Part shown: positions 1 through 32,340 of the stretch, piece by piece
Layout of the letters: every line of letters begins with the position of its first letter
Numbering within the stretch: the stretch's first letter is position 1
DNA from: Craspedostauros australis
Lineage: Eukaryota > Bacillariophyta > Bacillariophyceae > Mastogloiales > Achnanthaceae
Assembly: GCA_026770025.1 (NCBI GenBank)
Contig: JAMXDE010000010.1
Location: 930,001-994,000, forward strand
Length of the DNA stretch: 64,000 nucleotides
Direction of reading: 5' to 3'
Notes under the pieces: model-generated
Databases searched by the model: none
Told to the model about the DNA's origin: nothing
The model's input: only the letters and a program-made list of their open reading frames with translations
Made by a program: the position numbers and the translations under genes

Positions 1-37
1 GGTGTCGCTATTGTTAGAGATTTAGCGTGCGCTAATA
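1..37 (-). repeat. 3' LTR of the copia element, cut by the window edge
   Basis: Identical over 37 bp to 6571-6607. On the minus strand it directly follows a G-rich tract ending GGGGAG, as expected for a polypurine tract and LTR start. The rest of the LTR lies left of the window. Confidence 0.75.
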
Positions 38-61
38 CTCCCCAAAGCGTGTCCCGGACAT

Positions 62-5656: not shown

Positions 5657-5977
5657 GATGAGCGATGGATGGATGGAGAGAGCGGATGCGGATGCTGGAG
5701 GCTGAAGGATAGCTGAGGCTGGAGTGCACTGACTGAATCGTCTTCTGGTGCGGGAGGGTGCTGCAGGAAGTCTCGGATGGCTGAGTGGGAAGGCCCGAAC
5801 TCAGCAGAGGGACCGAAAGGAGGGCGTTCTGCAAATGCGAGAAAGCCGAAGGAAAGCCGAAATCACGTCGTCACGTGATGGAAGGTGAAGGGATCGCTCG
5901 TGGATGGACGAGGGATGAAGGATGGATGGATTGTCACGCAATCAATTCAGTAGGTGAAAGCTTGCGACTGTTAATCT

Positions 5978-7644: not shown

Positions 7645-7842
7645 AAAAAAAAAAAAAAAAGAAAGAGAGAATCGGAAAACACACGAACAGCGAAAAGGAC
7701 GCGAACAGCAAAGACACAACACAACAACAATAGAATCAACAGGAAAGAACAACAGACACTAATCGACGGGTACCAGACCCGACTACACAAAACCCTCCGC
7801 GAAGAGAGGAACAACCACTAAAATAGTGGACCAACAACAACA

Positions 7843-10800
7843 ATGACAACCGGCAATAGCCAGACACGACAGTCCGTACCACCAAGTAATAGCGACGACA
7901 TGATGGCTGCCACAGTCAACACAATAGCGAGCAGTCTAAACGATGCTTGCGGGGATGCGATGGGGACTAAAACCCAGGACACGATAAGGATTGTGTTCCA
8001 GAATGCATCTCAGATCCCGATCCACTCGTATCAACAGAAGAACGACGAGATCTTCGAATTCGTTCAAATGAGCGGACTCGACGTGCTCTGCATGGCGGAA
8101 ACCAACATCAGATGGGACCATGTCCGGCCTCAAGATCAATGGTCGGAAAGAGCCAGATCACCAATACCCAGGTCAAAGCACGTGTTCGCATACAACACGC
8201 ATGAACCAAAAAGAGACCCAAGGATTTACGGAGGCGCAGGAACGGTGCTTACCGCCCAGATGGCCGCCCGAACATTCCAAAGCGGAGTCGACGAAAGCGG
8301 GATGGGAAGATGGTGTTGGACCCTATCGGAAGGCAAAGCAGGAAGGATGCTGAGGACGATAGCGGCTTACCGTCCATGCCGCTCGACCAGCGGCGACAAC
8401 ACGGTCTGGGCACAACAGTCCAGAGTGTTGAACGCAGAAGGACGAGTCGATAACCCGCACGAAGCATGGATACAAGATCTACTGGAAGAACTGAGGAGAT
8501 GGAGGTCCCAAGGCGACACGATCATTATGGGCGTTGACCTCAACGACGATGTGATGGACAGCGCTACCGCCCAGCAACTACACGCTGTCGGAATGAAGAA
8601 TGCAGTTGAAGCGCGGGTGGGAAGTGAGGCCAGACAGGCCACTCAACAACGGAATCGCGAAGGAACACCCATCGATGCGATATACACCTCTGAAGGGGTA
8701 CAAATCGAGAGCGCGGGATACCTTGCCTTTGGCGCCGCCATCCCTTCGGACCACCGAGCGATTTGGGCAGATGTCAGTTTCGCGCAGATCCTAGGCGCGG
8801 GAATCAGGCCAGTCAAGACCAAATCCCCACGACGGTTGGTGCTGAGCGACCCTCGAGTAGTCCAGAGATACAATGATGCACTCTTTGAAGAGTTTGCCCG
8901 GCACAACATCCCCCAACGAGTGGAGAAGATGTGGACAACGGTGAAACGACAAGGATGGACGCTGACGATTACACAACGAACGCAGTTCGACAAGCTTCTG
9001 GATCAGATCCACCAGATGCGCAGATCCGCGGAGAAAAGCTGTCGAAAGCTTAAGATGGGTTGCGTATCATGGTCCCCGGAAATACAGCATTCACGTGACG
9101 CGATCAAGCATTGGACCCTGGAGGTGAAGCAACAAGCCGGCGTGAAAGTGAGTTCATCCCTACGCCTGCGCACCCGCCGAAAAACGGCCCTCCCAGAAAG
9201 TACGTCACTCCAGCACGCCCAGCAGATGCGCGTAGAGGCATACAGGACCTACTACGCACAAAAGAAGGATCACGACAGAGCAAGGCAGGACTATCTGGTA
9301 CAATTGGCACGACAACGGCACGACGCAAAAGAGCAGGAATACGAATCGGCATTGCATCTGCTGCTGAATCGAGAGAAACAGCGAGAGCAAGCGCGACGGC
9401 TGCGTGCCGTCTTCGGAAGTGGCAAGTCCATGACTACCAAGGTGCTGTTCACAGACGACAGTGGCCAGGTACATGAGTGCAACGATCAACACGAGATAGT
9501 CACTGCATGTATACGAGAGAATAAGAAACGATTCTCCCAAGCAAACCGTACTCCATGCATGACGGGTGAAGGCAAGAAGTTCATGGACAGGATATGGTGC
9601 CCACAGCTGGCACCCCAACTGATAAAGGCCGGCGCCCAGATTCCAGAGTCGATTGATCCAATGATACAGGTTTTGCTGGAGTCGTTGGAACCGGTGCCAC
9701 CAGACGTGTCAGAGCTGTCAGTCGAAGATCATGTAAAAGCATGGAAGAAGCAGACTGAACTGACCAACTCTGAGCCGAGCTGCCCCCACTTTGGGCACTA
9801 CAAGGCATCAGCGATTTCCTCGACGCTGGCGCGAGTCGATTCACGCATGCGGGAGATCCCCTACCAGACTGGACACTCCCCCTCACCCTGGCAACGCATC
9901 ACCGACGTGGAAATACTGAAAAAAGCGCAAGTGTTCAATATAGAGAAAATGCGTACCATCCAATTGATGGACGCTCAGTTCAATTTGAACAACAAGAGAC
10001 TGGGCAAACAAATGATGGCAACAGCGGAGGCAGCCGGATGGCTTTCTGAGCATCAGTTTGGGAGCCGCAAGCAGAGGTCAGCCATGAGCGCCGCGCTCAA
10101 CAAGCGTCTCTCTATCGACTTAGGGTTTCAACGGAAGGTGGCGGTCTCATTCTGTTCAAACAACGCGAAATCCTGCTACGACAGGATTGTTCCCAACTTC
10201 GCAGCCGCAGCCATGATAGCTGCAGGCGCCAACAGCTCGGCCACCCGTAGCATGTTCAAGACGCTACGAGACGCCAAGCATCACATCAGTACTGCGTACG
10301 GAGTTTCCCAACGGCATTACACGAAGGGAGCGGACTGCGACATGCACGGCATAGGTCAAGGTAACGGAGCGGGTCCGGCAATATGGGCCGTGATCAGCTC
10401 TGTGCTGTTCAAGGCCATGACAAGGTTGGGCCACTCGTTCTCTCTCAGAAGCCCGTCCGGTGAAGCCTTGCCCATCCTGGGTTCGGCGTTCGTCGACGAC
10501 ACTGACCTGGTCAGACTTGAGCGACGCCGGAAGGACTCAGCCGATACGGAGGCATTCAAACGCATCATACTCGACTGGGGGAACTTGCTACGGGTCACCG
10601 GAGGTGCTCTGGTGCCAGAGAAGTCCGCATGGTGGGCCATGCAACCCCGGTTTGACAAAGACAAATGGGAGTGGCACGACGCCAACGGTGGTACCGACAT
10701 ACGCATCGACGACGGCCACGGAGGAAGCGCCGACATCCCACGAAGGGCGATGGACCAACCCTTGTTCACCCTGGGGGTGTTTATTGACTTCGACGGCGAC

Positions 10801-13368
10801 AGTGACTCGCAAGTTCAAGCTATGCGGAAGAAGGCTGAGGATTTTGGAGGGAGGATGCGCACGGCGCAGATTTCCCCGGAAGATGCCCGATCTGCCTTAA
10901 CACTGCAGTTCATGAAGTCCATCGAGTACGCCATGCCTCTCGTTCAGCTTGCCCCGAGTGAGTGGAGATACATAATGGCCCCGGCCTTGTTGGCCGCGCT
11001 ACCCAAGATGGGTTGCTCTAGAAATATGCCGAGAGATTTGGTGTACGGAACAAAGTCGCTCGGAGGGTTGGGAATCAGGAATCCCGCCAACTCCCAGTTG
11101 ATAGCGCAAATCCGCCTTGTCTTTGACGAAGTGCACCGAGGAACACAAACAGGCGCAATGTTCAAGTGCTCGATCCAGGCCCTGAAGGAGGAGCTCGGAA
11201 TCGGTGGCTCGTTGTTTCAGTATCCATTCGGAGTTATCGGTCACTGCGCAACCCGTTGCTGGATCACAGGTCTATGGCGGCAGCTTCACGGCACCGGCAT
11301 AGAGGTGATCGAAACGACGGAGTCGAGAGAAACGCAGCGGGAAGGCGACTCTTTCCTTATGGACCTGTGGATTCGCCAGAGAGTGAAAGGGGCGCAGCTG
11401 TATCATCTCAACATGATACGACAGAAGTTGGGAGTCCTACGACTTTCGGATATTGTGTCAGCCGACGGCACCAGAATAGTGCCAGGAGTACTTGACGGAA
11501 CTTTTGAGTCAAGTACGCCCCAGCCGTGGGCGCGACAGCCGAAACGGTTACCGAGTGGGTGGTGGAGAGAATGGCAACGATGGTGCAAGTCCTTGTGCTT
11601 TCACGGTCTTCTTCTACATCATCCGCTTGGAAGATGGCTACGCGACGACGGATCTTGGCGGTGGTGGAAAGCTCCCTATCAGGATGATATCTTTGACATA
11701 TCCGTTTCTCCATTCTTGCAATACTTGCCGAATCCTTGGCGGCGCACGCGGCGACAGCAATACACCCGCACAAGAGCCGTCACGGAAATCCCCGAGGGAG
11801 CCAAACGCGTCACGGTGGTAGCCACGGAGCAGGGTATCGAATGGAATGGGCACCTTGGTCTCTCAAGCGTTCCAGACGAGCCAGCTGACGCTCCGTTCCC
11901 GTTCGAAGATATGCGAGGAGCCATGTCCCTTCAGGAAGCGGCCAGAGCAGCGAATCGGGGAACTCTAGTGATGGTGAGCGACGGGTCATTCAAGGACCAA
12001 CGCGGCACATCGGTCTCTACAGCCTATGACACGGAGTCCGAGCGATACATCTACTGCCACACGTTTGTCCCAGGTCCCCCAACCGTCCAAAGTGCTTACC
12101 GCAGTGAGCTGGCAGGGATTTGGGCATCGCTTGCCATGCTTAGCATTATGCCCGGGCTGATGCCTAGCGCGGTTGTTACTATCGCGCTCGACGGCAAACA
12201 GGCGCTCACGCAGGCGCAAAAGGACGATCTGCGGCCCAGTCAGAAGGATTGGGACATTCTCACGGAGATTCAGATGCTACGACATGAGATACCGGCATTG
12301 TTGAAATGGGAATGGGTCAAAGGCCACCAAGACGGCACCGGGAAGAAGCTCACTCTGCTCGAGCAGCTCAACGTGGAAGTCGATCGGAGAGCCAAACAAT
12401 TTTGGGAGGCCACCATATCACGGCCCCACAACACACAGTGGGCCACTGACACCGTTCGGTGGCGCATACGGCTTCGCGGCAGTGATCACTCCCATGTGGA
12501 TCCTGATGCCATTAACGAGCTACTACAGTCCAATTCGGCAATGCAGTACTGGTCTTCGAAGTTCAAATGGAACCCCACTCAGCTGAGCCAGGTCGACTGG
12601 CAAACCTACAAATTGGCGCGCAAGTCCAAGTCCAATCGAAGCTCCACGACGTTCATCACTAAATGGTCATCGGGTTTTGTTGGAGTCAACCGGAAATTGT
12701 TCCAGACGGGGCAACTGCCTTCATCCAAGTGCAAGTTCTGCAATCAGGAGGAGACGACTCAACACGTACTGAAGTGCTCAGAACACTTGGGCGCATGGAA
12801 AGAAGCCACGGACGGCCTTGTGGGCCGTATGCTGGAGATCGGAACGTCTCCTCGCCTGGTGAGCAACATGAGAGTGGGGCTGGTGAAATGGAGACGAAAC
12901 GCGCGATCATCGGACGCCCAAAGTACCGTTGGTTGGTACCCGCTCCTGCTGGGATTTTTGCACACAGACTGGATCCGTCAACAAGAGCTATGGATGAAAA
13001 CGCACGAGTGCCGATACCCGGACGCGGCGGTGTGGGCCAGAGAGGTGGTGCGATGGATATGGAAGGTGCCTTGGGAAGTGTGGTTGGCACGCAATGCAAA
13101 AGTACATGACGAAGAGAACCACCCGACAATGCGGGATCTGCGGCGACAGGTCCAGCGCCTTCTTCAAAGCGCGAGCAAGGATATGAACGATTCGGAGCTT
13201 CATCTACTCCGTGTAGGTCGTATCGTCGAAAGTGGCACAGAAGAGCAGATGAGACAGTGGGTGAATTCTATGATAGCCGTACAAGCGACGGTGAAAGCGC
13301 GGCGACGGTCACGAACAATGCAGGCTGAAAGGCAGGCAATGGCGTCGTGGCTAGGGCTGGGCTCATAG
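7843..13368 (+). CDS. LINE ORF2: endonuclease / reverse transcriptase / RNase H (1,841 aa)
   Basis: Domain order by residue: APE-like endonuclease about 45-310, closing with the Ser-Asp-His catalytic box near 301-303 followed by RAIW; reverse transcriptase about 680-960, with motif B (GQGNGAGP) near 838 and motif C FVDD near 882-885; RNase H about 1375-1510, with acidic residues in SDGS, SELAG, LDGKQAL and EVDRRA; and a Cys-x2-Cys...His...Cys knuckle near 1630. The frame is open over its full length. One oddity: motif A reads FCSNNAKSCYDRI, so the position normally held by the first catalytic Asp (as in D-A-x-x-x-[FY]-D) is Asn. The start at 7843 is the first ATG of the frame and lies in an A/C-rich leader. 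Family assignment is firm; the exact clade is not. Confidence 0.9.
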   Translation: MTTGNSQTRQSVPPSNSDDMMAATVNTIASSLNDACGDAMGTKTQDTIRIVFQNASQIPIHSYQQKNDEIFEFVQMSGLDVLCMAETNIRWDHVRPQDQWSERARSPIPRSKHVFAYNTHEPKRDPRIYGGAGTVLTAQMAARTFQSGVDESGMGRWCWTLSEGKAGRMLRTIAAYRPCRSTSGDNTVWAQQSRVLNAEGRVDNPHEAWIQDLLEELRRWRSQGDTIIMGVDLNDDVMDSATAQQLHAVGMKNAVEARVGSEARQATQQRNREGTPIDAIYTSEGVQIESAGYLAFGAAIPSDHRAIWADVSFAQILGAGIRPVKTKSPRRLVLSDPRVVQRYNDALFEEFARHNIPQRVEKMWTTVKRQGWTLTITQRTQFDKLLDQIHQMRRSAEKSCRKLKMGCVSWSPEIQHSRDAIKHWTLEVKQQAGVKVSSSLRLRTRRKTALPESTSLQHAQQMRVEAYRTYYAQKKDHDRARQDYLVQLARQRHDAKEQEYESALHLLLNREKQREQARRLRAVFGSGKSMTTKVLFTDDSGQVHECNDQHEIVTACIRENKKRFSQANRTPCMTGEGKKFMDRIWCPQLAPQLIKAGAQIPESIDPMIQVLLESLEPVPPDVSELSVEDHVKAWKKQTELTNSEPSCPHFGHYKASAISSTLARVDSRMREIPYQTGHSPSPWQRITDVEILKKAQVFNIEKMRTIQLMDAQFNLNNKRLGKQMMATAEAAGWLSEHQFGSRKQRSAMSAALNKRLSIDLGFQRKVAVSFCSNNAKSCYDRIVPNFAAAAMIAAGANSSATRSMFKTLRDAKHHISTAYGVSQRHYTKGADCDMHGIGQGNGAGPAIWAVISSVLFKAMTRLGHSFSLRSPSGEALPILGSAFVDDTDLVRLERRRKDSADTEAFKRIILDWGNLLRVTGGALVPEKSAWWAMQPRFDKDKWEWHDANGGTDIRIDDGHGGSADIPRRAMDQPLFTLGVFIDFDGDSDSQVQAMRKKAEDFGGRMRTAQISPEDARSALTLQFMKSIEYAMPLVQLAPSEWRYIMAPALLAALPKMGCSRNMPRDLVYGTKSLGGLGIRNPANSQLIAQIRLVFDEVHRGTQTGAMFKCSIQALKEELGIGGSLFQYPFGVIGHCATRCWITGLWRQLHGTGIEVIETTESRETQREGDSFLMDLWIRQRVKGAQLYHLNMIRQKLGVLRLSDIVSADGTRIVPGVLDGTFESSTPQPWARQPKRLPSGWWREWQRWCKSLCFHGLLLHHPLGRWLRDDGSWRWWKAPYQDDIFDISVSPFLQYLPNPWRRTRRQQYTRTRAVTEIPEGAKRVTVVATEQGIEWNGHLGLSSVPDEPADAPFPFEDMRGAMSLQEAARAANRGTLVMVSDGSFKDQRGTSVSTAYDTESERYIYCHTFVPGPPTVQSAYRSELAGIWASLAMLSIMPGLMPSAVVTIALDGKQALTQAQKDDLRPSQKDWDILTEIQMLRHEIPALLKWEWVKGHQDGTGKKLTLLEQLNVEVDRRAKQFWEATISRPHNTQWATDTVRWRIRLRGSDHSHVDPDAINELLQSNSAMQYWSSKFKWNPTQLSQVDWQTYKLARKSKSNRSSTTFITKWSSGFVGVNRKLFQTGQLPSSKCKFCNQEETTQHVLKCSEHLGAWKEATDGLVGRMLEIGTSPRLVSNMRVGLVKWRRNARSSDAQSTVGWYPLLLGFLHTDWIRQQELWMKTHECRYPDAAVWAREVVRWIWKVPWEVWLARNAKVHDEENHPTMRDLRRQVQRLLQSASKDMNDSELHLLRVGRIVESGTEEQMRQWVNSMIAVQATVKARRRSRTMQAERQAMASWLGLGS

Positions 13369-13477
13369 GAGGCATTCGACAGCTCGCTCAAAGCACGGTC
13401 CTAAGGGGCCGGTGGCGGCGAGGGTAAAGCCTACAGGCACATTCCTAATGTAATCACTGAGTTATTATTATTATTGC

Positions 13478-13921
13478 ATAGTGTCCAGACTGCAGACACA
13501 ATTCTCTATTCTTCAGAGAGAGAGAACAGGGACGGAGAAAGAGCACGGGGATTCTAACACTATCTATTCCGCTGCACTGAACGTGGATCAGTGTAGCCTC
13601 GGTTATTATGTATTTGTAGGGAAAGGATCAGGTGCCGAATGCCGCGCGTGCTGGGAATAAGTAATCCACCGTACAATGCGAGAAAGTTGCGGAATAAGTA
13701 GTGAGAGGCATGATCCAACGTCACAGCCACGGGAGCATGGAGGGTGAACTCTGAAAGCGCGATGTCTACACAATGCTGATGTGTCGTATCTTTGGAGAGA
13801 TAGGTAGAGTACCCGCACAGAAGAGAAGCGAGATAATACGGAGGAGTATTGGAATTTGCGAACAGTAATGCTGCAGTACCATACTATTAGTGTGATGCTT
13901 CTGACCGAGGCTGCTTCATGT
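13478..13921. other. Intergenic, no gene seen
   Basis: About 440 bp between the LINE tail and the 3' end of the HtrA-like gene. It holds a short GA-rich run near 13515 and no convincing reading frame or RNA gene. Confidence 0.6.
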
Positions 13922-14881
13922 TTATGGCTGAGGGATGCTTAGCGATGCAGAGCCATTCGTTTGATTCCTCATGGACTTCCGGATGGTCTCGATCGCTTCG
14001 TGAATCGGAATTGCATACGTTATGCCTTCGGCTACCTTGATGGAGTTGATGCCAATGATTTGTCCGTGTATGTTTGCGAGCGGCCCGCCAGAATTGCCAA
14101 TGTGGACAGCGGCGTCCGTTTGGATGTAGCGATGCACGCCTACATTTCTATCCGGATTGGAGACGATGCCGACCGTCACCGAGCTTTCCAGGCTCAACGG
14201 CGCACCCACTGCCAGCACGAATTCACCATGGCGCACGCGCCCATCCACAAGCGACGATGCCATCAGGTGACCTTGATCGAAGGGTTCGATACATGCCACA
14301 TCCTTCTCAACGTCAAATGCCACCATCCAACCGCGAATCTGCTGGCTGCCCTTCATCTCCAGAAAGACTTGTCGACCGTCTTCGATTACTTCGTTGCGAT
14401 GGAATTCTTCTGGCGTGAGCACGCAGTGCGCATTGGTGAGAATGTAGACGCCAGTCGACCCAGGCTTCACGTCACCAGCATCCACGACGAAACCGGATCC
14501 TGACCCGCGTAACCTGCCCCCGGGACCGGCCTTCACCTCGACGCGGACGACCGACGGCAGCACCTTCTCCGCGGCATCCGCGACGAAGTTGAATCGACCC
14601 AGTGCGCTTTCCGTTGGTGTGGGGATGGGAGCGACAGGAGCAGCCGCGGGCGTTGCCATTGTATCGGAACGGATCGTCTCAAGGCCGTGTAGGCGCAGCG
14701 CTTCATCGCCAATGCCGGGGCTTGGCTGTATCCTGGTCTCGCATTGCGTCGGCAGTTGGAGATGCTGCGTCTGGCGGTGCGATTGCTTGGCGAGACCGTT
14801 GTAATAGACAAAGCCGATGGACCCGCAGAGCAGAGCCGGAAGAGACCCTGTTGTGCATGCTTTGGCGACTCTCGAGTACAT
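13922..14881 (-). CDS. HtrA/Deg-like trypsin-fold serine protease without PDZ (319 aa)
   Basis: A single exon encodes a chymotrypsin-fold protease of the HtrA/DegP group. The catalytic triad is visible: His152 in TNAHCV, Asp194 in KDVACI and Ser264 in GNSGGPL. The protease domain spans about residues 95-305, and the protein ends shortly after the last beta strand, so the PDZ domain usual in HtrA/Deg proteins is absent. The N-terminus has a short basic start and a hydrophobic stretch (about 14-29), then a Pro/Ala-rich linker; this fits a membrane anchor or an organelle presequence but does not identify the compartment. It is divergent to methionine synthase, separated by 1.2 kb. The role is presumably protein quality control. 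A PDZ exon outside the frame was not found downstream. Confidence 0.88.
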   Translation of the reverse strand: MYSRVAKACTTGSLPALLCGSIGFVYYNGLAKQSHRQTQHLQLPTQCETRIQPSPGIGDEALRLHGLETIRSDTMATPAAAPVAPIPTPTESALGRFNFVADAAEKVLPSVVRVEVKAGPGGRLRGSGSGFVVDAGDVKPGSTGVYILTNAHCVLTPEEFHRNEVIEDGRQVFLEMKGSQQIRGWMVAFDVEKDVACIEPFDQGHLMASSLVDGRVRHGEFVLAVGAPLSLESSVTVGIVSNPDRNVGVHRYIQTDAAVHIGNSGGPLANIHGQIIGINSIKVAEGITYAIPIHEAIETIRKSMRNQTNGSASLSIPQP

Positions 14882-16082
14882 GATCTTGTTGCGGAGATGG
14901 TTGTTATGGTGGGCTGCAATTGGTGATGGGTTGGGAGATTGCGCGTGCGATCTCTTGACAAATGATGTTCATTGTGGTCTTTTCGAGCGCAGGTATTTGC
15001 GAGAAGAACGACGATGTGTGGAAAAGAACAAACGTGGTGCATTGGCGCCAGAACCACAGAACAAGAACGAGAAGCATGATTGCTGCCCAAAGGAACACGA
15101 GAAATGTGACACCATCATCATCACGTCATTCGTGATTGACTGACCTTGTGGGGATTGAATGGGTTCGCGGCATAATATAAAATTAGTACATATTGCGACA
15201 ACAAATGAAGAATCAGGATTGGTACAGATATACTATATACATAGTATCAATTGAAACATGCAAAACGAAATTCCAAAGAAAACCTGGTACTGTCGAGGAA
15301 CACTGAACGTGCTGTTCGCGAACACTTCTTCGTTGTTCGTTAATCTTGGAAATCAGTGGAACGTGCGGTCCAACACGTCACCACGAAGAAAGAGATGTGC
15401 ATCGTCTGTCCATCATTGCGTTCACCGCCATTTTGTGTCAAGCATTTTTTGGATCGGTTCGTTGCTGATGTCGCGCCTCCGTCCTCCAACCAACCAGCGA
15501 CGCGATGGAACGAAACGCGGGGCAGAGAATCTGTCGATCCACCGACCCATCGACCGAACGAACTGACAGCAGAAACCACTCTCTGGGGTACGCGCATGAG
15601 GGGAGTACAACCAGGAAGACCAACGAAGAGAAAGACAGGAGCAACACAACGGACGTATGGCGACACTCCTTTCTGCCATTCCTCCACTTCATCTCATCTC
15701 AAAAAGTGAGTGCGAGATAGGACGACACTCCACCAGTCCTTCCTGACACTTACTTGCGCTTGCTTCCACTCCCGAATCAGACCACCTCCCACCGGAACGG
15801 TCCCATACTCATCCTCGTGCCCATAGTAGTACTAGCAGTGTACATACTATACTTGTCTCGCGATCGCGTCTTGCACAGTGACAACCTGAACCAGGACAGC
15901 GAGCCCATTCAACATCAACATCAGCGGCATCACCAGCAATAAGAATAGCAATAGCCGTACCAGTCGAGTGCAGTGCAGTGCATCAACAGTAGTAGCAACA
16001 GTCTCTTTCAAGCAGAGGGGCCAACAACATCAAACGACGGAAAGAAGCGAAAGATCGAACCACGGAGAAGGCGATTGTGAAG
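14882..16082. promoter_or_regulatory. Divergent intergenic region between HtrA-like protease and methionine synthase
   Basis: About 1.2 kb separates two start codons on opposite strands, so it must hold both promoters. An A/T-rich patch with a TATA-like stretch lies near 15172-15186. Short frames occur on both strands around 15258-15709, but none looks like a protein. The last 130 bp before the methionine synthase ATG is CA-rich and is probably 5' UTR. Confidence 0.45.
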
Positions 16083-19000
16083 ATGGTTGACCCACCGAAG
16101 AAGCTGCACCCGAGGAAGCAGTTCGCATACGATGCGATCCCATCCAAGCCGGCCGTCGAACCACCCACACCGGTGTCCGATGTGGCCCGCAACCACGTCC
16201 CCAACCCATACACCAACTCCACCTTCACCCACGAAACCATCGCGGCCATCCGCGCCAAGGCCACCAACCCTAACAAGGACATCAACTTCGACTACACACA
16301 GGATCCCGACCTCTACCCAACCGAGTTCCCGTACTTCGTGCGTGGACGTGACAGTCTCCGCGAGTACATCACCAAGCTCTTCAACAGCCGCATCTCTCTC
16401 TACGATGGTGGAATGGGAACCATGATCCAGAACTTCTCCAAGCGCAACCGTCTCGAAGAAGAGGAGTACAGAGGTGATCGCTTCCCCAACTGGCCATGCA
16501 ACGTCAAGGGAAACAACGACATGCTCAGCATCACCCGTCCAGACGTCATCCAGGGCATCTACAAGCAGTACCTCGAGGTGGGAGGATCCGACCTGATCGG
16601 AACCAACACCTTCTCATCCACCACCATCGCCCAAGCTGACTACGAGATGGAGGCATACGCATACGAGCTCAACTACGAGTCCGCCCGTCTCGCTCGTGAG
16701 GTGTGTGACGAAGTCACAGCCAAGGACCCAACCAAGCCACGCTTCGTGGTGGGAGCCATGGGACCAACCAACCGCACGGGATCCATCTCGCCATCCGTCG
16801 AGGATCCATCCGTTCGCAACGTCGACTTCGACGAGCTTGTGGAAGCGTACTTCGAGCAGATCGTGGGACTGGTCGATGGAGGATGTGACATCCTGATGGT
16901 CGAGACCATCTTCGATACCCTCAACGCCAAGGCGGCCGTCTACGCCGTGGGAGAGTTCCTCGAGATCACTGGCATCGACATGCCGCTGTTCGTCTCTGGA
17001 ACCCTCGTCGATCAATCTGGCCGTACCCTGTCCGGACAGACCGGAGAGGCGTTTTACGCATCCATCCGCCACAGCAAGCCCATGTGCGTTGGTTTGAACT
17101 GTGCCTTGGGTGCCGAGCACATGGTCCCATTCGTGGAGAGACTGGCCAAGTGTGTGGAGTGCTTCATGCACGTGTACTCGAATGCTGGTCTTCCAAATGC
17201 CATGGGAGGATACGATGAGACCCCATCCGATATGGCCGAAGGAAACCGTGTGTTCTTCGAGAACGGATGGCTGAACATGGTGGGAGGATGCTGCGGATCC
17301 ACACCAGAACACATCAAGGCCATCCGCGAGGCATCCGAGAGCTACAAGCCCCGCAAGCTCCCAGATGTGGGACGCCCCAAGATGTGGCTGTCTGGTCTTG
17401 AGGATCTTGTGGTGGATGACGTCCACAACCACCTCGGTCTTCCATTCCTGAACGTCGGAGAGCGATGCAACATCGCTGGATCGATCCGATTCAAGAAGCT
17501 GATGATGGCTGGCGACTACGCAACCGCCATGGACATCGCCAAGCATCAGGTCGAAGATGGAGCCCACGTGATCGACATCAACGTCGATGATGGTATGCTC
17601 GATGGACTCGCTGCCATGCAGAAGTTCGTGAAGATCGCCATCACCGAGCCAGAAGTGTCGAAGGTTCCATTCATGCTCGACGCATCGAAGTTCGAGATCG
17701 TGATGGCCGGACTGAAGTGGTGCCAGGGCAAGCCCATCGTGAACTCCATCTCCCTGAAGGTCGGAGAAGAGCTGTTCATGGAGCATGCGACTCTGCTGCG
17801 CAAGCACGGAGCAGCAGTGGTGGTGATGGCCTTCGATGAGGAAGGTCAGGCCGCCACTGCGGATGAGAAGATCCGCATCTGCAAGCGTTCGTATGACATC
17901 CTGGTGAACAAGGTCCGCTTCCCACCTGAAGACATCATCTTCGATCCGAACGTGTTGACGATCGGAACAGGAATGGAGGAGCACTCGAACTACGGCGTTG
18001 ATTTCATCAACGCCACGAAGGTGATCAAGGAGCAATGTCCATACGTGAAGATCAGCGGAGGTATCTCGAACCTTTCGTTTGGCTTCCGTGGTGTGACGAA
18101 GATCCGCGAGTCCATCCATGCTGTGTTTTTGCATGAGGCAATCTTGAACTCTGGAATGGACGTCGGTATCGTGAACGCCAAGGAGCTGTTGGCCGTGGAT
18201 GAGCTCGAAGACGACATGCGGATCTTGTGTGAGAACCTTGTCTTCAACAAGGACGAGGATGCCACCGAGGACATGTTGAAGCGCACTTCTTACGAGCGTG
18301 CCGCCAAGGAAGCCCTCAAGAAGGGATTGCCACCACCAAGAAAGCCCCGTGGCAAGATGCGCCAGCTTCCGAAGAAGCAGTTCGCCTACGATGCGATCCC
18401 ATCCAAGCCAGCCATCGAGCCACCCACACCGGTGTCCGATGTGGCCCGCAACCACGTCCCCAATCCATACACCAACTCCACCTTCACCCACGAAACCATC
18501 GCAGCCATCCGCGCCAAGGCCACCAACCCAAACAAGGACATCAACTTCGACTACACACAGGACCCCGACCTCTACCCAGCCGAGTTCCCGTACTTCGTGC
18601 GTGGACGCGACAGTCTCCGTGAGTACATCACCAAGCTCTTCAACAGTCGCATCTCTCTCTACGATGGTGGAATGGGAACCATGATCCAGAACTTCTCCAA
18701 GCGCAACCGTCTCGAAGAGGAGGAGTACAGAGGTGATCGCTTCCCCAACTGGTCATGCAACGTCAAGGGAAACAACGACATGCTCAGCATCACCCGTCCA
18801 GACGTCATCCAGGGCATCTACAAGCAGTACCTCGAGGTGGGAGGATCCGACCTGATCGGAACCAACACCTTCTCATCCACCACCATCGCCCAAGCTGACT
18901 ACGAGATGGAGGCATACGCATACGAGCTCAACTACGAGTCCGCCCGTCTCGCTCGTGAGGTGTGTGACGAAGTCACAGCCAAGGACCCAACCAAGCCACG

Positions 19001-22000
19001 CTTCGTGGTGGGAGCCATGGGACCGACCAACCGCACAGGATCCATCTCGCCATCCGTTGAGGATCCATCCGTTCGCAACGTCGACTTCGACGAGCTTGTG
19101 GAAGCGTACTTCGAACAGATCGTGGGATTGGTCGATGGAGGTTGTGACATCCTGATGGTCGAGACCATCTTCGATACCCTCAACGCCAAGGCAGCCGTCT
19201 ACGCCGTGGGAGAGTTCCTCGAGATCACTGGCATCGACATGCCGCTGTTCGTCTCTGGAACCCTCGTCGATCAATCTGGCCGTACCCTGTCCGGACAGAC
19301 CGGAGAGGCGTTTTACGCATCCATCCGCCACAGCAAGCCCATGTGCGTTGGTTTGAACTGTGCCTTGGGTGCCGAGCACATGGTCCCATTCGTGGAGAGA
19401 CTGGCCAAGTGTGTGGAGTGCTTCATGCACGTGTACTCGAATGCTGGTCTTCCAAATGCCATGGGAGGATACGATGAGACCCCATCCGATATGGCCGAAG
19501 GAAACCGTGTGTTCTTCGAGAACGGATGGCTGAACATGGTGGGAGGATGCTGCGGATCCACACCAGAACACATCAAGGCCATCCGCGAGGCATCCGAGAG
19601 CTACAAGCCCCGCAAGCTCCCAGATGTGGGACGCCCCAAGATGTGGCTGTCTGGTCTTGAGGATCTTGTGGTGGATGACGTCCACAACCACCTCGGTCTT
19701 CCATTCCTGAACGTCGGAGAGCGATGCAACATCGCTGGATCGATCCGATTCAAGAAGCTGATGATGGCTGGCGACTACGCAACCGCCATGGACATCGCCA
19801 AGCATCAGGTCGAAGATGGAGCCCACGTGATCGACATCAACGTCGATGATGGTATGCTCGATGGACTCGCTGCCATGCAGAAGTTCGTGAAGATCGCCAT
19901 CACCGAGCCAGAAGTGTCGAAGGTTCCATTCATGCTCGACGCATCGAAGTTCGAGATCGTGATGGCCGGACTGAAGTGGTGCCAGGGCAAGCCCATCGTG
20001 AACTCCATCTCCCTGAAGGTCGGAGAAGAGCTGTTCATGGAGCATGCGACTCTGCTGCGCAAGCACGGAGCAGCAGTGGTGGTGATGGCCTTCGATGAGG
20101 AAGGTCAGGCCGCCACTGCGGATGAGAAGATCCGCATCTGCAAGCGTTCGTATGACATCCTGGTGAACAAGGTCCGCTTCCCACCTGAAGACATCATCTT
20201 CGATCCGAACGTGTTGACGATCGGAACAGGAATGGAGGAGCACTCGAACTACGGCGTTGATTTCATCAACGCCACGAAGGTGATCAAGGAGCAATGTCCA
20301 TACGTGAAGATCAGCGGAGGTATCTCGAACCTTTCGTTTGGCTTCCGTGGTGTGACGAAGATCCGCGAGTCCATCCATGCTGTGTTTTTGCATGAGGCAA
20401 TCTTGAACTCTGGAATGGACGTCGGTATCGTGAACGCCAAGGAGCTGTTGGCCGTGGATGAGCTCGAAGACGACATGCGGATCTTGTGTGAGAACCTTGT
20501 CTTCAACAAGGACGAGGATGCCACCGAGGACATGTTGAAGCGCACTTCTTACGAGCGTGCCGCCAAGGAAGCCCTCAAGAAGGGATTGCCACCACCAAGA
20601 AAGCCCCGTGGCAAGATGCGCCAGCTTCCGAAGAAGCAGTTCGCCTACGATGCGATCCCATCCAAGCCAGCCATCGAGCCACCCACACCGGTGTCCGATG
20701 TGGCCCGCAACCACGTCCCCAATCCATACACCAACTCCACCTTCACCCACGAAACCATCGCGGCCATCCGCGCCAAGGCCACCAACCCAAACAAGGACAT
20801 CAACTTCGACTACACACAGGATCCCGACCTCTACCCAACCGAGTTCCCGTACTTCGTGCGTGGACGTGACAGTCTCCGTGAGTACATCACCAAGCTCTTC
20901 AACAGCCGCATCTCTCTCTACGATGGTGGAATGGGAACCATGATCCAGAACTTCTCCAAGCGCAACCGTCTCGAAGAGGAGGAGTACAGAGGTGATCGCT
21001 TCCCCAACTGGTCATGCAACGTCAAGGGAAACAACGACATGCTCAGCATCACCCGTCCAGACGTCATCCAGGGCATCTACAAGCAGTACCTCGAGGTGGG
21101 AGGATCCGACCTGATCGGAACCAACACCTTCTCATCCACCACCATCGCCCAAGCTGACTACGAGATGGAGGCATACGCATACGAGCTCAACTACGAGTCC
21201 GCCCGTCTCGCTCGTGAGGTGTGTGACGAAGTCACAGCCAAGGACCCAACCAAGCCACGCTTCGTGGTGGGAGCCATGGGACCGACCAACCGCACAGGAT
21301 CCATCTCGCCATCCGTTGAGGATCCATCCGTTCGCAACGTCGACTTCGACGAGCTTGTGGAAGCGTACTTCGAACAGATCGTGGGATTGGTCGATGGAGG
21401 TTGTGACATCCTGATGGTCGAGACCATCTTCGATACCCTCAACGCCAAGGCAGCCGTCTACGCCGTGGGAGAGTTCCTCGAGATCACTGGCATCGACATG
21501 CCGCTGTTCGTCTCTGGAACCCTCGTCGATCAATCTGGCCGTACCCTGTCCGGACAGACCGGAGAGGCGTTTTACGCATCCATCCGCCACAGCAAGCCCA
21601 TGTGCGTTGGTTTGAACTGTGCCTTGGGTGCCGAGCACATGGTCCCATTCGTGGAGAGACTGGCCAAGTGTGTGGAGTGCTTCATGCACGTGTACTCGAA
21701 TGCTGGTCTTCCAAATGCCATGGGAGGATACGATGAGACCCCATCCGATATGGCCGAAGGAAACCGTGTGTTCTTCGAGAACGGATGGCTGAACATGGTG
21801 GGAGGATGCTGCGGATCCACACCAGAACACATCAAGGCCATCCGCGAGGCATCCGAGAGCTACAAGCCTCGCAAGCTCCCAGATGTGGGACGCCCCAAGA
21901 TGTGGCTGTCCGGTCTTGAGGATCTTGTGGTGGATGACGTCCACAACCACCTCGGTCTTCCATTCCTGAACGTCGGAGAGCGATGCAACATCGCTGGATC

Positions 22001-24683
22001 GATCCGATTCAAGAAGCTGATGATGGCTGGCGACTACGCAACCGCCATGGACATCGCCAAGCATCAGGTCGAAGATGGAGCCCACGTGATCGACATCAAC
22101 GTCGATGATGGTATGCTCGATGGACTCGCTGCCATGCAGAAGTTCGTGAAGATCGCCATCACCGAGCCAGAAGTGTCGAAGGTTCCATTCATGCTCGACG
22201 CATCGAAGTTCGAGATCGTGATGGCCGGACTGAAGTGGTGCCAGGGCAAGCCCATCGTGAACTCCATCTCCCTGAAGGTCGGAGAAGAGCTGTTCATGGA
22301 GCATGCGACTCTGCTGCGCAAGCACGGAGCAGCAGTGGTGGTGATGGCCTTCGACGAGGAAGGTCAGGCCGCCACTGCGGATGAGAAGATCCGCATCTGC
22401 AAGCGTTCGTACGACATCCTGGTGAACAAGGTCCGCTTCCCACCTGAGGACATCATCTTCGATCCGAACGTGTTGACGATCGGAACAGGAATGGAGGAGC
22501 ATTCGAACTACGGTGTTGATTTCATCAACGCCACGAAGGTGATCAAGGAGCAATGTCCATACGTGAAGATCAGCGGAGGTATCTCGAACCTTTCGTTTGG
22601 CTTCCGTGGTGTGACGAAGATCCGCGAGTCCATCCACGCTGTGTTCTTGCATGAGGCGATCTTGAACTCTGGAATGGACGTCGGTATCGTGAACGCCAAG
22701 GAAATGCTGGCGCTCAGCGAAGTCGAACCGGAACTGAAGGCCGCATGCGAGGACCTCGTTTTCAACAAGAACGAGGATGCCACGGAGAAGATGTTGGAGC
22801 TGACCAAGAAGGAGAAGGACGCCATCGAAGCAAGGAAGAAGGGAGGCGTCGTCACTGTCAAGGAGACATCCTGGAGAGACTTCGATGCCGTCAAGCGCTT
22901 GGAACATGCCCTGGTGAACGGTATCTCGCAGTACGTCGATGGCGATGTCGAAGAGGCCCGCCAGATATGCGACAAACCACTCGACGTTATCGAAGGTCCA
23001 TTGATGGATGGTATGAACATTGTCGGTGACCTCTTCGGTTCAGGAAAGATGTTCTTACCGCAGGTCATCAAGTCCGCACGCGTGATGAAGAAGGCCGTCG
23101 CCTACCTTCTCCCATTCATGGAGGAAGAGAAGAAGCAGAAGATGATCGACGAGGGCATCGACCCGAGCACGGTCGATGCCAACGACGACTCTAACTACGC
23201 CGGCAAGGTGCTGATGGCAACCGTCAAGGGTGACGTCCACGACATTGGAAAGAACATCGTGGCCGTCGTGCTCGGTTGCAACAACTTCAAGGTTTATGAC
23301 ATCGGAGTCATGGTCTCGTGTGAGAAGATCCTCGAGAAGGCCAAGGAATACAAAGTTGACGTGATCGGTCTCTCCGGGTTGATCACACCATCGCTCGATG
23401 AGATGGTGGTCGTCGCCAAGGAACTCTCGAAGGGAGGCTTCAAGCAGCCACTCCTGATCGGTGGTGCCACCACCTCCAAGATGCACACCGCCGTCAAGGT
23501 AGCGCCGAGCTACTTCACCTCGCTGCATCCGGTGATTCATGTGCTGGATGCATCCAGATCTGTCACAGTCGTGTCCTCGTTGCTTGGAGAAAACAAGGCC
23601 GAATTCGTCGACGAGTTGGATGAAGAGTACGAAGAGATGCGAGAAGACTACTACGCTGGACTGGAAGACCGTCACTTCCTCACCTTCGATCAAGCGAAGG
23701 AGAACAAGTACAAGATCGACTTCGATGATGCACCGCCAGCACCCGTTCCAGCCAAGCTGGGAATCACTGTCATTGACAACATCAAGGTCGCCGATGTTGT
23801 GCCATACATGGACTGGAACCCCTTCTTCCAAACTTGGGAGCTGCGTGGTCGATACCCCAACCGTGGTTACCCCAAGATCTTCAACGACGCAACCGTCGGT
23901 TCGGAAGCCAAGAAGCTCTTCGATGACGCACAGGCCATGATGAAGGAGATCATCGCCGACGGCTCCCTGACGTTGAAGGGAGTTGTGGGACTCCACCCTG
24001 CCAACCGCAGCGAGGACGGCGAAGACGTCGACGTCTTCCTCACCGAAGAAGACCGTGAACAAGGCAAGATCGCCACCAAGTACTGCATGCTCCGACAGCA
24101 GGCGGAGAAGGAATCTGATGACCCGTACATGTCCCAGGCCGACTTCATCGCTCCAAAGGGATACAAGGACCACATCGGCTTCTTCGCTGTGTCTTGCTTC
24201 GGCTGCGACGCCCTTGTTCGGAAGTACGAGGCCGACAACGACGACTTCTCCAAGATCATGGCCCAGGCCCTGGCCGATCGTTTCGTCGAAGCCTTCGCCG
24301 AGTACCTCCATCGCGAAATCCGTACCGAGATGTGGGGTTACGCCAAGGGTGAGTCTCTCGACGAGGCCGATCTCTTAAAGATCAAGTACGATGGTATCCG
24401 TCCAGCTCCAGGCTACCCATCCCAGCCAGATCACACCGAAAAGCGCCCCATGTGGGACTTGGTCAGAGTCAAGGAGCTGGCGGGCATCGACCTCAGCGAC
24501 TCCCTCAGCATGATGCCAGCTGCCTCCGTTTCGGCCCTGGTCTTTGCCCATCCACAATCCGAGTACTTCGCGGTTGGGCAGATCGGAAAGGATCAAGTTG
24601 AGAGCTACGCAAAGCGCAAGGAGATGGAGCTGTCCCGCTGCGAGCGCTGGTTGTCGCCCATCTTGAACTACGAGCGTGACTAG
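16083..24683 (+). CDS. metH: Cobalamin-dependent methionine synthase with three tandem homocysteine/folate modules (2,866 aa)
   Basis: Transfers a methyl group from methyltetrahydrofolate through cobalamin to homocysteine. The usual protein has about 1,230 residues in the order homocysteine, folate, B12, activation. Here residues 12-764, 765-1517 and 1518-2206 are three near-identical homocysteine + folate modules, followed by one B12 cap and binding domain (DVHDIGKN, axial ligand His2386) and one activation domain ([12 protein letters not shown], about 2520-2866). The three zinc cysteines of each homocysteine site are kept in every unit: 340/403/404, 1093/1156/1157 and 1846/1909/1910. The folate motif NVGERCN is also kept in all three. 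Each unit begins with a roughly 90-residue extension of unknown role before the GGMGTM start of the family. The ATG at 16083 is chosen as start; the frame opens two codons earlier with GTG. No intron is evident. An assembly artefact must be excluded, but unit-specific differences argue against simple collapse or duplication by software. Confidence 0.93.
16116..22700 (+). repeat. Three-unit in-frame tandem repeat inside metH (period 2,259 bp)
   Basis: Units start at 16116, 18375 and 20634, with exactly the same spacing. Units 1 and 2 run the full 2,259 bp. Unit 3 stays homologous to about 22700 and then changes to a different tail leading into the B12 half. Bodies differ at only scattered, mostly synonymous sites. 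In the first ~820 bp of a unit, unit 2 shares diagnostic bases with unit 3 (for example the third base of the Ala codon at 19193). From 19610 onward it shares them with unit 1 (for example C at 19610 where unit 3 has T at 21869). Confidence 0.95.
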
Positions 24684-27461: not shown

Positions 27462-30005
27462 ATGCCCACATCATCTCCGTCCTCTCCCACATCCAAGCAC
27501 GTCAAAGCATCCAAGCCTCCCCTAATTGGCGCGGCAAGCTACAGTTGTGCCGAACCCTTTGTGGTATTCCTCAATGGCAATCGGAAAGAATTGCTTCATG
27601 CTACTACTGGAGCAACAGGAAACCGCTCTGCAGGAGCACCAACTGTGAGCAGCAAGGGAGTATGCAACGGCAACAGTGCCTGCATCAGCGTGGCTGGTAC
27701 CACCACCATCAGCAGCACCGCAAGCAGAATCGAAAGCAACAGGCGCAGCAGTCGCATCCTCAACCGCCTCAAACGCAAACTTGCGTTGAGGCGAAAAAGC
27801 CATCATGAGAGAATCGGCACAATTGCAGCCAATGACACCAATGATGGCACAGCCAGCCACGATGGCACGCCCAGCCACGATGGCATGCCCAGCCACGATG
27901 GCACACCAAGCAATGATGGCACACCAAGCAACAATGGCACGCCCAGCAACGATGGCACGCCCAGCAACGATGGCATGCCCAGCAACAATGGCACACCCAG
28001 CAATGATGGATCAATGGGTGCAGATCACACCACTTTCATCGGTGCTGCCATGGCTACTGACAGAGCAACTGCTACAGATGGCACAATCATGGACAACAAT
28101 GAAATTGCAAATGACAATGCAACTGGTGCGGATGGCACAGCCATTCCTGTGCATGGAGCCGACAAAAATGTTGGCTATGTGCCACTCCCCATCAGTTCCC
28201 ACATGCCACTCTTCCGGTCAGTTGGAGGTGTCAACCCATCAGTTGATACCATCCTGGAGGTTTACTTCTCACGGCAACTCATTGAATCCATTCAAGTCCA
28301 CACCAACAACCATATCTTCAACAGTGGATCCACGGCCAGCTTCGTTTCAGTGAAGGAGATCTACCTCTTCCTTGCAATCTACTACTACATGGGAGTCTTC
28401 AAGGCACCGGCCAAGCGGGATTATTGGCGTGCCCCTTCCATTGGCATACCATCCCACTTGCTGACAAAGTACATGACACGGGCAAGATACGAAGTTGTGT
28501 GGAACCACATTCACTTCACAGCTGTGAGGGGCACAATTACTGCTGGCACAAAGAAGGCCACTGACTCAGATGACGAGGATGTCAGTGACAGCGAAGACGA
28601 TCTCGTCCAGAGCCGATACGATTCTCTCACAAGTGCAACCATCAGCAGCTTGCCCTCAATTCGATCTGCAACTTCGAGCCTCTCTGCATCCACAGCCACC
28701 AACCAAACCCTGTACACGCAGCCCCACATTCCTCCTACACCGATTGTTGACAGCAACAGAAGCTGGTATCACAAGATCCAACCACTGCTTGACCACGTCA
28801 ACCAGGTGTCGAAGAGTATCTGCATCAATCCAGGCTTTGCCTGTGCAATCGATGAGATGATGGTGAGATTCAAGGGCAGGTCCAGGCAGACCACTCGGAT
28901 GAAGCAGAAACCCATCAAAGAGGGGTACAAATTCTACGCTCTGTGCTGCTCGAAGACTGGATTTGGATATCATGTACTGCCTGCAGGACGTCTGGACACC
29001 ACAACAAAGATCAACAACACTGTGGAGGAACTCATGAAGACATTGGACCCAACAAATCATCATGTTGTTGCGATGGACAATCTCTTCACAACCAAGACAG
29101 TCATGGCAAAGTCAAGAGAGATGGGCATTGGAGTTGTTGGCACTGCAAGGAGGAGGAACGGATTCCCCAGCACAGAGGTGAAGGAGGTCGATGACATGCG
29201 CTTCAACTCACTCTATGTCTGGATTGAGAACAATCAGTACGTGGTGACCAGGTGGATTGACAACAATGTGGTGTTGATGGTCAGTACGGTGCACCATGGG
29301 AACGAGTCGGTACTTTCCAATCGCCACAAGCCAAGAAAGAACAAGGTGAATGCAGGGCACTTGGAGATGGTCTGGGGGAGCAAGTACTCTGCTCACATCC
29401 GAATCCCAAAGATGATTGACGACTACAATCATTGGATGCTTGGAGTTGACAAATGCGATCAACTCATCGCATACTATCGCCCTGACTTGAGGGCTCAGAG
29501 AGTATGGATGCCCCTCATGTTCCACTTGTTCGACATCATGCGCGTCAATACTTGGATTGCATTCAATCACCTGGCAAGGGAGCAAGATCGATTGAGAAGC
29601 AAGGCATTCATGATCGAGATGATTGAGGCTCTTGTCCGCAAAGGGAATGAGGCAGACTTGATGGCAACAAGGTCAAGCCGCGAGAGAGTCCCACACACCA
29701 TTCGAACAAGGAATCGGATGAGCCCCTGCTCTCCAAAGCTGCCCAGATCGAGGTTGGAGGGGAGATTCGAAGATCACAAGGAGATCATCAGCAGGGACGG
29801 AAGCCAGAAGACTTGCAGATACTGTTCTTATCTTAAAGCAAAAGCAAAGCTTGAAGGGAGGCCCACACACGAACCAAGCAGAGTCAGAAGGGTGTGCAGT
29901 GTGTGTGGAATCCATGTCTGTAAGCTGCACTGGAATGTATTTCATGGGAAGGATGACGAGAGTATCACCAACTCTGAAGAGAGTGAACTGACCATTACAG
30001 TCTAA
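27462..30005 (+). CDS. piggyBac-family DDE transposase (847 aa)
   Basis: The DDE_Tnp_1_7 core of piggyBac transposases spans about residues 245-715. The predicted catalytic aspartates are Asp464 (AIDEMM), Asp539 (AMDNLF) and Asp663 (GVDKCDQL), all present. A C-terminal cysteine/histidine-rich domain (Cys-x2-Cys, then Cys-x2-Cys-x4-Cys-x2-His-x4-His) lies near 785-830, as in the family's end-binding domain. The long N-terminal region (1-240) is low-complexity and contains nine hexapeptide repeats, D/N-G-T/M-P/A-S-H/N. The frame is open and complete. Terminal inverted repeats with TTAA duplications were not found by eye, so it may be a stranded or domesticated gene or an element whose ends were missed. 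The exact start Met is uncertain. Confidence 0.9.
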   Translation: MPTSSPSSPTSKHVKASKPPLIGAASYSCAEPFVVFLNGNRKELLHATTGATGNRSAGAPTVSSKGVCNGNSACISVAGTTTISSTASRIESNRRSSRILNRLKRKLALRRKSHHERIGTIAANDTNDGTASHDGTPSHDGMPSHDGTPSNDGTPSNNGTPSNDGTPSNDGMPSNNGTPSNDGSMGADHTTFIGAAMATDRATATDGTIMDNNEIANDNATGADGTAIPVHGADKNVGYVPLPISSHMPLFRSVGGVNPSVDTILEVYFSRQLIESIQVHTNNHIFNSGSTASFVSVKEIYLFLAIYYYMGVFKAPAKRDYWRAPSIGIPSHLLTKYMTRARYEVVWNHIHFTAVRGTITAGTKKATDSDDEDVSDSEDDLVQSRYDSLTSATISSLPSIRSATSSLSASTATNQTLYTQPHIPPTPIVDSNRSWYHKIQPLLDHVNQVSKSICINPGFACAIDEMMVRFKGRSRQTTRMKQKPIKEGYKFYALCCSKTGFGYHVLPAGRLDTTTKINNTVEELMKTLDPTNHHVVAMDNLFTTKTVMAKSREMGIGVVGTARRRNGFPSTEVKEVDDMRFNSLYVWIENNQYVVTRWIDNNVVLMVSTVHHGNESVLSNRHKPRKNKVNAGHLEMVWGSKYSAHIRIPKMIDDYNHWMLGVDKCDQLIAYYRPDLRAQRVWMPLMFHLFDIMRVNTWIAFNHLAREQDRLRSKAFMIEMIEALVRKGNEADLMATRSSRERVPHTIRTRNRMSPCSPKLPRSRLEGRFEDHKEIISRDGSQKTCRYCSYLKAKAKLEGRPTHEPSRVRRVCSVCGIHVCKLHWNVFHGKDDESITNSEESELTITV
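27843..28004 (+). repeat. 18-bp coding minisatellite in the piggyBac gene (9 units)
   Basis: Nine in-frame 18-bp units coding for Asp/Asn-Gly-Thr/Met-Pro/Ala-Ser-His/Asn. Units differ by a few substitutions but not in length. Such arrays usually vary in copy number between alleles. Confidence 0.9.
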
Positions 30006-30806: not shown

Positions 30807-32340
30807 ATGTTCTCATCCGCACGATCGTCCCTCACCGCCATCGCCAAGCGACAGTTCGCGTCGCCTCGGACTCGCAATGCATCGTCGCTGGCGGATACTC
30901 TGTCGACTTTGAAGGGAGAGCACTTCATGACCATCGACCAGTTGACGTAAGTCGCAGCGTCTCGCATCTTTCAATGCAAGCACACGTTCCTCCTCCCCAT
31001 CGATCCATCAAATGCGCTGATGGATCAGGAGCGGCTCGGCGTCATTTGGAAGCAGAAGGGGGTACATACCATACTCCAACAAATGAAGCTACGGCCGAAT
31101 GATTGGATGGGAAGCACGTGGATATGCCGATGTCGCTGACGGATTGTATGGGATCGCACACATGACCAATGAAGGATCAATCTGGTATCTGCCACCCAAC
31201 AGCACACGGTCCTACCTGTTGTCCATTTGCCATGAAGTTGATTGGTATAATACCATCCAGCCGGCATGCACGGAATGAATACATGCTTACGGAATCTCTG
31301 TCTCTTGTGAATTGACACCTATGCCAATATCAACTCCATACACCTCTCTTTGTGCACACACAAACACACACGCATTCATATTCATGTCCACGTCCATGTT
31401 CATTGCCATATTTCATTTTTGCACTATTGCTGGACTCAGCAACGATGAGCTGAAAGGTCTCCTGAATCTGTCGCAAAAGTACAAAGACATCTACAGCGAC
31501 AAGTCCAACCCAAATCCAAAACCGCTCGACGGTGACTCCGTCAGCATGATCTTCCAAAAGAGATCCACACGAACGCGTGTGTCGACGGAAACTGGCATGG
31601 CACTGCTTGGTGGACACGCCCTGTTCCTTGGTCCATCTGACATCCAGCTCGGCGTCAACGAATCCATGCGTGATACAGCCTCCGTCCTGGCGAGATTCAA
31701 TTCGTTGGTCTTGGCACGCGTGTTCTCACACAGCGACATCGAGGAGCTCGCCAAGTACTCCACAGTTCCCATCATCAACGCACTTTCCGACTTGCACCAC
31801 CCGCTCCAAACCTTGGCGGACATCATGGCGTTGCAGCAGCATTTCGGCGCCGATTTGGAAGGCAAGACCTTGGCATGGGTCGGCGATGGCAACAACGTCC
31901 TGCACGATCTCATGCTGGGCTGCGCCAAGATGGGCATGAGCGTCAACATCGCCACTCCCACCGGATACGAGCCAAACGCCGAGATCTTGGAGAAGACGAA
32001 GCAGCTCGCTGCTGAGAACGGGGGCGTCATTTCCACCACGACCGTCGCCGCTGATGCCGTGAAGGGCGCCGACGTCGTCGTGACCGACACCTGGGTCAGC
32101 ATGGGCCAGGAGGAGGAATACGCCAAGCGCGTCAAGGACTTCGACGGCTACCAAGTCAACAATGACCTGATGGGCAAGGCCAACCCTGGCGCGGTCTTCC
32201 TGCATTGCCTTCCGCGTCATCCGGAGGAGGTCACGGACGAGGTCATCTACAGCGATCAGTCGCTGGTCTTTTCCGAAGCCGAGAACAGAATGTGGACCGT
32301 CATGGCTGTCATGGCTGCCCAGCTCGGGAAGGTTGAGTAG
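30807..32340 (+). CDS. OTC: Ornithine carbamoyltransferase, mitochondrial type, two exons (346 aa)
   Basis: Makes citrulline from ornithine and carbamoyl phosphate. Exons 30807-30946 and 31440-32340; the intron 30947-31439 has a GTAAGT donor and a CTCAG acceptor and splits a Thr codon (AC|C). The carbamoyl-phosphate loop Ser89-Thr-Arg-Thr-Arg, His167-Pro-Leu-Gln and the ornithine-site His302-Cys-Leu-Pro are all present, and length and order match the family. Exon 1 encodes a presequence-like N-terminus (MFSSARSSLTAIAKRQF: Arg/Ser/Ala-rich, no acidic residue), consistent with mitochondrial import. In diatoms this enzyme belongs to the mitochondrial ornithine-urea cycle; that role is inferred from the targeting signal. 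Confidence 0.95.

Follow-up and report, generated by a model that had tools for sequence, protein, structure and literature searches.

The 64,000-nucleotide (nt) stretch analyzed here, hereafter the window, comes from the diatom Craspedostauros australis (contig JAMXDE010000010.1, positions 930,001 to 994,000), and its plus strand carries a gene for a cobalamin-dependent methionine synthase (MetH) with three in-frame copies of the front half of the enzyme. MetH is the standard example of an enzyme in which a single cofactor domain moves between one set of fixed substrate domains. The open frame extends from an ATG at 16083 to a stop codon at 24681-24683; from the open reading frame list it comprises 2,866 codons, and the calculated mass of its product is 318 kDa. 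When the stretch was compared with itself, a period of exactly 2,259 nt (753 codons) was observed within the frame. Both the reading of the open frame and the self-comparison thus confirmed the first-pass annotation, in which the frame was given this length and this period. At the 2,259-nt offset, most of units 1 and 2 matched the following unit at 95-100% identity per 100 nt; beyond the array the figure was roughly 13-43%. Tandem Repeats Finder, for which the longest period handled is 500, reported no repeat. A chance or low-complexity repeat was rejected, the units being homologous enzymes of 700 residues.

A Pfam search of the frame detected S-methyl_trans (PF02574) and Pterin_bind (PF00809) three times each. 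The three front halves are followed by B12-binding_2 (PF02607), B12-binding (PF02310) and Met_synt_B12 (PF02965, E 5e-108), one apiece, and these counts (3/3/1/1/1) agree with the earlier claim that a single cobalamin domain and a single activation domain follow the units. The domains expected of a cobalamin-dependent methionine synthase are all present, i.e., the three-Cys homocysteine barrel, the folate barrel, the Cap and cobalamin domains, and the SAM-binding activation domain. One front half per back half is usual, albeit not essential, in MetH; here the ratio is 3:1. The features of the frame are as follows.

16083-24683 (+): whole open frame, 2,866 residues, 318 kDa calculated
16083-18341 (+): unit 1 (type A), with N-terminal extension, homocysteine barrel, folate barrel and tail A (self-comparison, Pfam, alignment, structure model)
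16935-18502 (+): 1,568-bp stretch identical to 19194-20761, 2,259 bp downstream; the longest exact repeat at that offset
16935-17350 (+): 416 nt (unit nt 852-1267) without a difference between the three units, holding the putative crossover
18180-18356 (+): tail A of unit 1, with the unit 1/unit 2 junction
18342-20600 (+): unit 2 (hybrid), with a unit-3-like front, and a rear and tail A identical to those of unit 1 (self-comparison, substitution sites)
18357-18359 (+): in-frame ATG at the head of unit 2, context GGCAAGATGC
20439-20615 (+): tail A of unit 2, with the unit 2/unit 3 junction, which matches the first junction exactly
20601-22859 (+): unit 3 (type B), which runs via tail B into the Cap domain (self-comparison, Pfam)
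20616-20618 (+): in-frame ATG at the head of unit 3; the frame from there has 1,355 residues (150.8 kDa), a conventional MetH size
22698-22844 (+): tail B of unit 3, ending ARKKG, diverged from tail A (synonymous divergence, dS, 1.09; nonsynonymous divergence, dN, 0.35)
22893-23108 (+): Cap (B12-binding_2) domain, residues 2271-2342 (Pfam)
23202-23486 (+): cobalamin-binding domain with GDVHDIGKN, the DxHxxG ligand loop (Pfam, alignment)
23787-24623 (+): activation domain (Met_synt_B12), residues 2569-2847 (Pfam)

The gap-free homology between units begins near 16110, after ∼9 residues found in unit 1 alone, and falls off abruptly at unit nt 2102, beyond which units 1 and 2 carry tail A and unit 3 carries tail B. 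A basic, proline-rich stretch closes tail A and is followed by the in-frame ATG that heads units 2 (18357) and 3 (20616), near the equivalent of the unit-1 start. Tail B, in turn, leads on into the Cap domain.

Three minus-strand open frames of 591-625 residues (16614-18491, 18873-20750 and 21132-22907) lie antisense to the gene and repeat with the units. They are probably a by-product of codon bias (GC content at third codon positions about 0.74) rather than genes.

Integrity and substitution history of the units

The three units were aligned with 16 full-length bacterial MetH proteins, chosen from 80 prokaryotic loci, to give 19 rows. The three columns of the zinc cysteines (in GLNCA and GGCCG) were C in 19/19 rows, and the folate-barrel motifs occupied the same unit positions in all three units, so that the reported intactness of both held for every copy. 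Among the 189 front-half columns that are invariant in the bacteria, 19 carry a different residue in at least one unit, and 18 of these do so in every unit; the units are unlike one another at only two of the 189, the tail residues 705 and 712. In the back half (after unit residue 735) 11 of 148 bacterial-invariant columns depart, and the DVHDIG of the B12 domain matches the invariant ones. Only 4 of the 32 variable body sites are amino-acid-changing (P about 1e-14 against chance). Decayed spare copies were considered for units 1 and 2 and are not supported: no stops are present, the changes are mostly silent, and 18/19 departures are common to all units.

Pairwise dS between the bodies of the units was 0.039 (units 1-2), 0.053 (units 1-3) and 0.031 (units 2-3), with dN of 0.001-0.002. 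Over 49 aligned codons tails A and B differ by a dS of 1.09 and a dN of 0.35; ∼17 of 29 silent sites have changed, compared with 33 of 118 replacement sites (Fisher P 0.004, from rounded counts). Since divergence is much greater in the tails than in the bodies, the two-unit state appears to be old and to have been kept as coding sequence while the bodies were homogenized. It is therefore probable, from these comparisons, that the A and B copies parted long ago, and that their bodies have since been homogenized by conversion or crossing-over. Replacement changes are under-represented in both bodies and tails, which is the best evidence for a long-standing translation of A-type units.

The substitutions are also ordered along the unit. 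Seventeen body sites specific to unit 1 lie at unit nt 31-851, ten sites specific to unit 3 lie at 1268-2057, and five specific to unit 2 lie at 161-305. The probability that the 17 and the 10 would separate completely by chance is 1.2e-7, for a test chosen after the pattern had been seen. By this order unit 2 is a B/A hybrid, a B front joined to an A rear, as is expected from one unequal crossover between A and B within unit nt 852-1267. The rear and tail of unit 2 are identical to those of unit 1 over 1,407 nt, and its front differs from unit 3 at five sites; equal ages for the front and the rear are unlikely (Poisson 2e-4). A rear that is identical and a front that is not suggest that unit 2 arose in a crossover between two different alleles, or that two haplotypes were merged in the assembly. 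Because unit 2 is a hybrid of units 3 and 1, the copy number is the least secure part of the picture. The old doubling is the firmer part, and the third unit and the sharing of one B12 are less firm.

A remnant of tail A in the 5′ untranslated region was also sought and rejected: the local alignment score was 28, compared with a mean of 27.3 and a maximum of 41 for 200 shuffles, which were 360 nt long against 383 nt for the real stretch.

Structure model and relatives

Each unit begins with an N-terminal extension of ∼90 residues (16083-16368 in unit 1, repeated in units 2 and 3), which after its first residues is nearly unchanged between units. It lies outside the match to the human structure, preceding the start of the human alignment, and 78 of 80 bacterial matches start at residues 69-108, the exceptions being L022 (residue 28) and L070 (residue 42). 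A model of unit 1 with tail A, built from a 22-row alignment, had a mean predicted local distance difference test score (pLDDT) of 83.6 and a predicted template-modelling score (pTM) of 0.83. The modelled unit consists of two barrels, which superimpose on the N-terminal half of human MTR (9ssp) with a root-mean-square deviation of 1.5 over 648 columns and a target-normalized TM score of 0.97. Residues 1-48 and 61-89 fall below a pLDDT of 50, and the tail forms helices at 710-720 and 727-746. From the end of the tail helix (∼746) to the next homocysteine barrel (∼residue 92), the predicted linker after units 1 and 2 would span roughly 100 residues; unit 3, unlike them, has a short link to Cap. 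According to two structural studies (PMC13376404, PMC10567725), the N-terminal half of MetH is a rigid double barrel joined by a flexible linker to mobile back-half modules, and the Cob domain moves about 50 Å between the folate and homocysteine sites.

All five domains occur in the same order in human MTR and bacterial MetH (9ssp, 4ccz, 8ssc, 8g3h). By fold alignment the front half shares 56% identity with the human N-half, and the best-aligned stretch against human MTR (9ssp) is residues 1596-2866, i.e., unit 3 and the back half. In contrast to the C. australis protein, human MTR and bacterial MetH have one front half per chain, and the human match begins only after the ∼90-residue extension. 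The same homocysteine-folate double-barrel fold is found in Thermotoga maritima MetH (1-566) (1q8j, 3bof), but these structures are of one isolated pair, ∼26% identical, whereas here the pairs stand in tandem in one chain. Core methionine synthases, as described in PMC7857596, offer a further likeness in that their homocysteine methylation probably relies on a corrinoid protein in vivo; they are without folate-binding domains, however, and each extra unit of the C. australis gene keeps one.

No tandem front halves were seen in 80 loci examined from at least 586 prokaryotic relatives, some of these loci being cut by contig ends; 79 of the 80 had one match, and one (L037) had a second, 27% identical, just downstream of its own MetH frame. 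The frame was closed at both ends in 76/80 loci, the longest having 1,451 residues. Six genomes behind these loci had one match each, in open frames of 1,224-1,336 residues. A match was present in 330 of 398 genomes from one bacterial phylum, and no open frame above 1,397 residues stood among the matches listed, two-match genomes not being looked at further. Nine stretches of viral contigs contained no relative.

The closest parallel comes from a 2015 paper on the methionine genes of Thalassiosira pseudonana (PMC4523565), which describes in Phaeodactylum tricornutum a long MetH gene (Phatr2 23399) with a "2,280-long intron" that is open in frame and encodes a MetH and a pterin-binding domain. 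Expressed sequence tags (ESTs) match this "intron", and the paper reads it as a probable domain doubling, to be verified. The two genes thus share an in-frame extra MetH and pterin half (2,259 nt here, 2,280 there), but from that description the P. tricornutum gene has two units and the C. australis gene three. The first-pass annotation knew of no MetH of this layout; this holds only in part, a doubled front half having been described. Neither a three-unit MetH nor later work on the doubling was recognizable in the open-access literature, among the matches listed. What appears to be new here is the third unit, the two tail types with their old divergence, and the mosaic unit 2, the doubled front half being already known from P. 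tricornutum.

Alternative explanations and genomic context

We are confident that this is a real gene with at least two coding units, and it is fairly likely that the third unit is real in the organism. The reading that we prefer, and to which we give an even chance, is a diatom-type MetH with a long-standing pair of in-frame front halves, which would have gained a third by unequal crossing-over and would carry the extra halves on linkers. An unlikely alternative is that the gene has two units, as in P. tricornutum, and that the assembler walked an A-B loop twice, making the third unit an artefact. The exact blocks common to units 1 and 3 (416 and 443 nt) are long enough to confuse an assembly from short reads. 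If the loop had simply been walked twice, units 2 and 3 should have the same front, yet five differences are present in unit nt 161-305, one of them amino-acid-changing. Heterozygous haplotypes could still supply these five, and one walk of the loop per haplotype would also give a hybrid unit 2. The 64-kb window contains no N, and its flanks (1-16000 and 24000-64000) contain no repeats of at least 60 nt, hence no long-terminal-repeat pair that would hint at the assembly method. It is also rather doubtful that units 1 and 2 are absent from the mature enzyme, such that a start at 20616, or the loss of a multiple of 2,259 nt from the mRNA, yields an ordinary 1,355-residue MetH and the long frame is a passenger or regulatory. 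The ATG at 20616 has an A at -3 and would give a product of normal size, ten AG^GT sites common to the three units would permit seamless skipping, six donor-like strings (GTGAGG/GTGAGT) lie within the gene, and the P. tricornutum gene model counts the unit as an intron (PMC4523565). On the other hand, ESTs were reported for that "intron" in the same paper, the constraint on the long-diverged tails argues for translation of tail A, and nowhere in the gene is there a YAG with at least 10 pyrimidines among the 12 preceding bases, a criterion applied without a control on known introns of this genome. It is improbable, too, that units 1 and 2 derive from a separate, diverged, stand-alone front-half gene that was fused upstream of a normal MetH and then homogenized by gene conversion. 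The strong difference between tails A and B, with its abrupt edge at unit nt 2102, and the initiator-like ATG at the repeat joint would fit such a fusion, but an old tandem duplication with later conversion would give the same picture.

Several observations weigh against the preferred reading of an old in-frame pair extended by crossing-over. A double walk of the assembler predicts a middle unit with a B front and an A rear at the exact unit period, as was found. At residue 712, in the tail, units 1 and 2 carry M, unlike unit 3 and the bacteria, which share L. Conversion alone could keep such similar bodies intact, so that intact active sites are no proof of the use of each unit. The flexibility of the linkers is weakly supported by the model, in which the extension is mostly below a pLDDT of 50 but almost without alignment depth, and the kinship to the P. 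tricornutum gene is drawn from its published description and the near-equal repeat length.

Further frames lie in the remainder of the window. A 1,864-residue frame with RVT_2 (62-5656, minus strand) is presumably a Copia-type retrotransposon. Two consecutive plus-strand frames (6343-7644 and 7843-13368), the second with an endonuclease domain (PF03372), an RNase H match that is sub-threshold only, and no reverse transcriptase family listed, are possibly a diverged non-LTR (long terminal repeat) element. The frame at 27462-30005 (+) has a transposase domain, DDE_Tnp_1_7, which we take to be of the PiggyBac type. Further on, the plus strand encodes a protein with both carbamoyltransferase domains (Asp/Orn; 31312-32340), one with nitrite/sulfite reductase domains (45110-46396; the opposite strand has a 461-residue frame without a Pfam match) and an iron/manganese superoxide dismutase (49445-50389), and the minus strand a retinoblastoma-type protein with A and B domains (50990-54799). 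Scans of the window with Rfam (gathering threshold) and for tRNAs gave no matches.

The enlarged front and the single cobalamin domain

We would classify the gene as a MetH whose front is enlarged, in a further expansion of a layout already noted in one diatom. Ancestrally, two in-frame front halves (A, then B) would have preceded a single B12 half, and a third would have been added when A and B crossed over unequally. The chances are balanced that the whole is made as a single long polypeptide. In such a chain unit 3 and the adjacent B12 half would perform the standard reaction, in which the methyl group passes from folate to cob(I)alamin and then to homocysteine. Given its short link to Cap, compared with the ∼100-residue separation of units 1 and 2, unit 3 is likely the chief partner of the B12 domain. 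That domain might also visit the additional rigid homocysteine-folate pairs on their ∼100-residue linkers, or receive methyl from them, whether in its own or in a neighbouring chain, and the benefit would be more substrate sites per B12. It is physically plausible that a single cobalamin could serve three substrate pairs, as the first-pass annotation proposed; that the extra units are catalytically used with the one B12 is a tentative proposal, which we would sooner doubt than accept. Quite unlikely, on present sequence evidence, is the fullest version, a 318-kDa enzyme with one cobalamin for three pairs whose array grows and shrinks through unequal crossing-over, leaving different alleles or strains with different module numbers.

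An enzyme built with additional substrate pairs would offer a natural way to examine the search of the cobalamin domain for its partners and the possible sharing of front halves. The gene also bears on the algal use of vitamin B12, which algae do not make (PMC12538271) and must obtain by uptake. To the brief remark of 2015 these results add evolutionary content: the doubling looks old and appears to have been kept as coding sequence, and the copy number may change.

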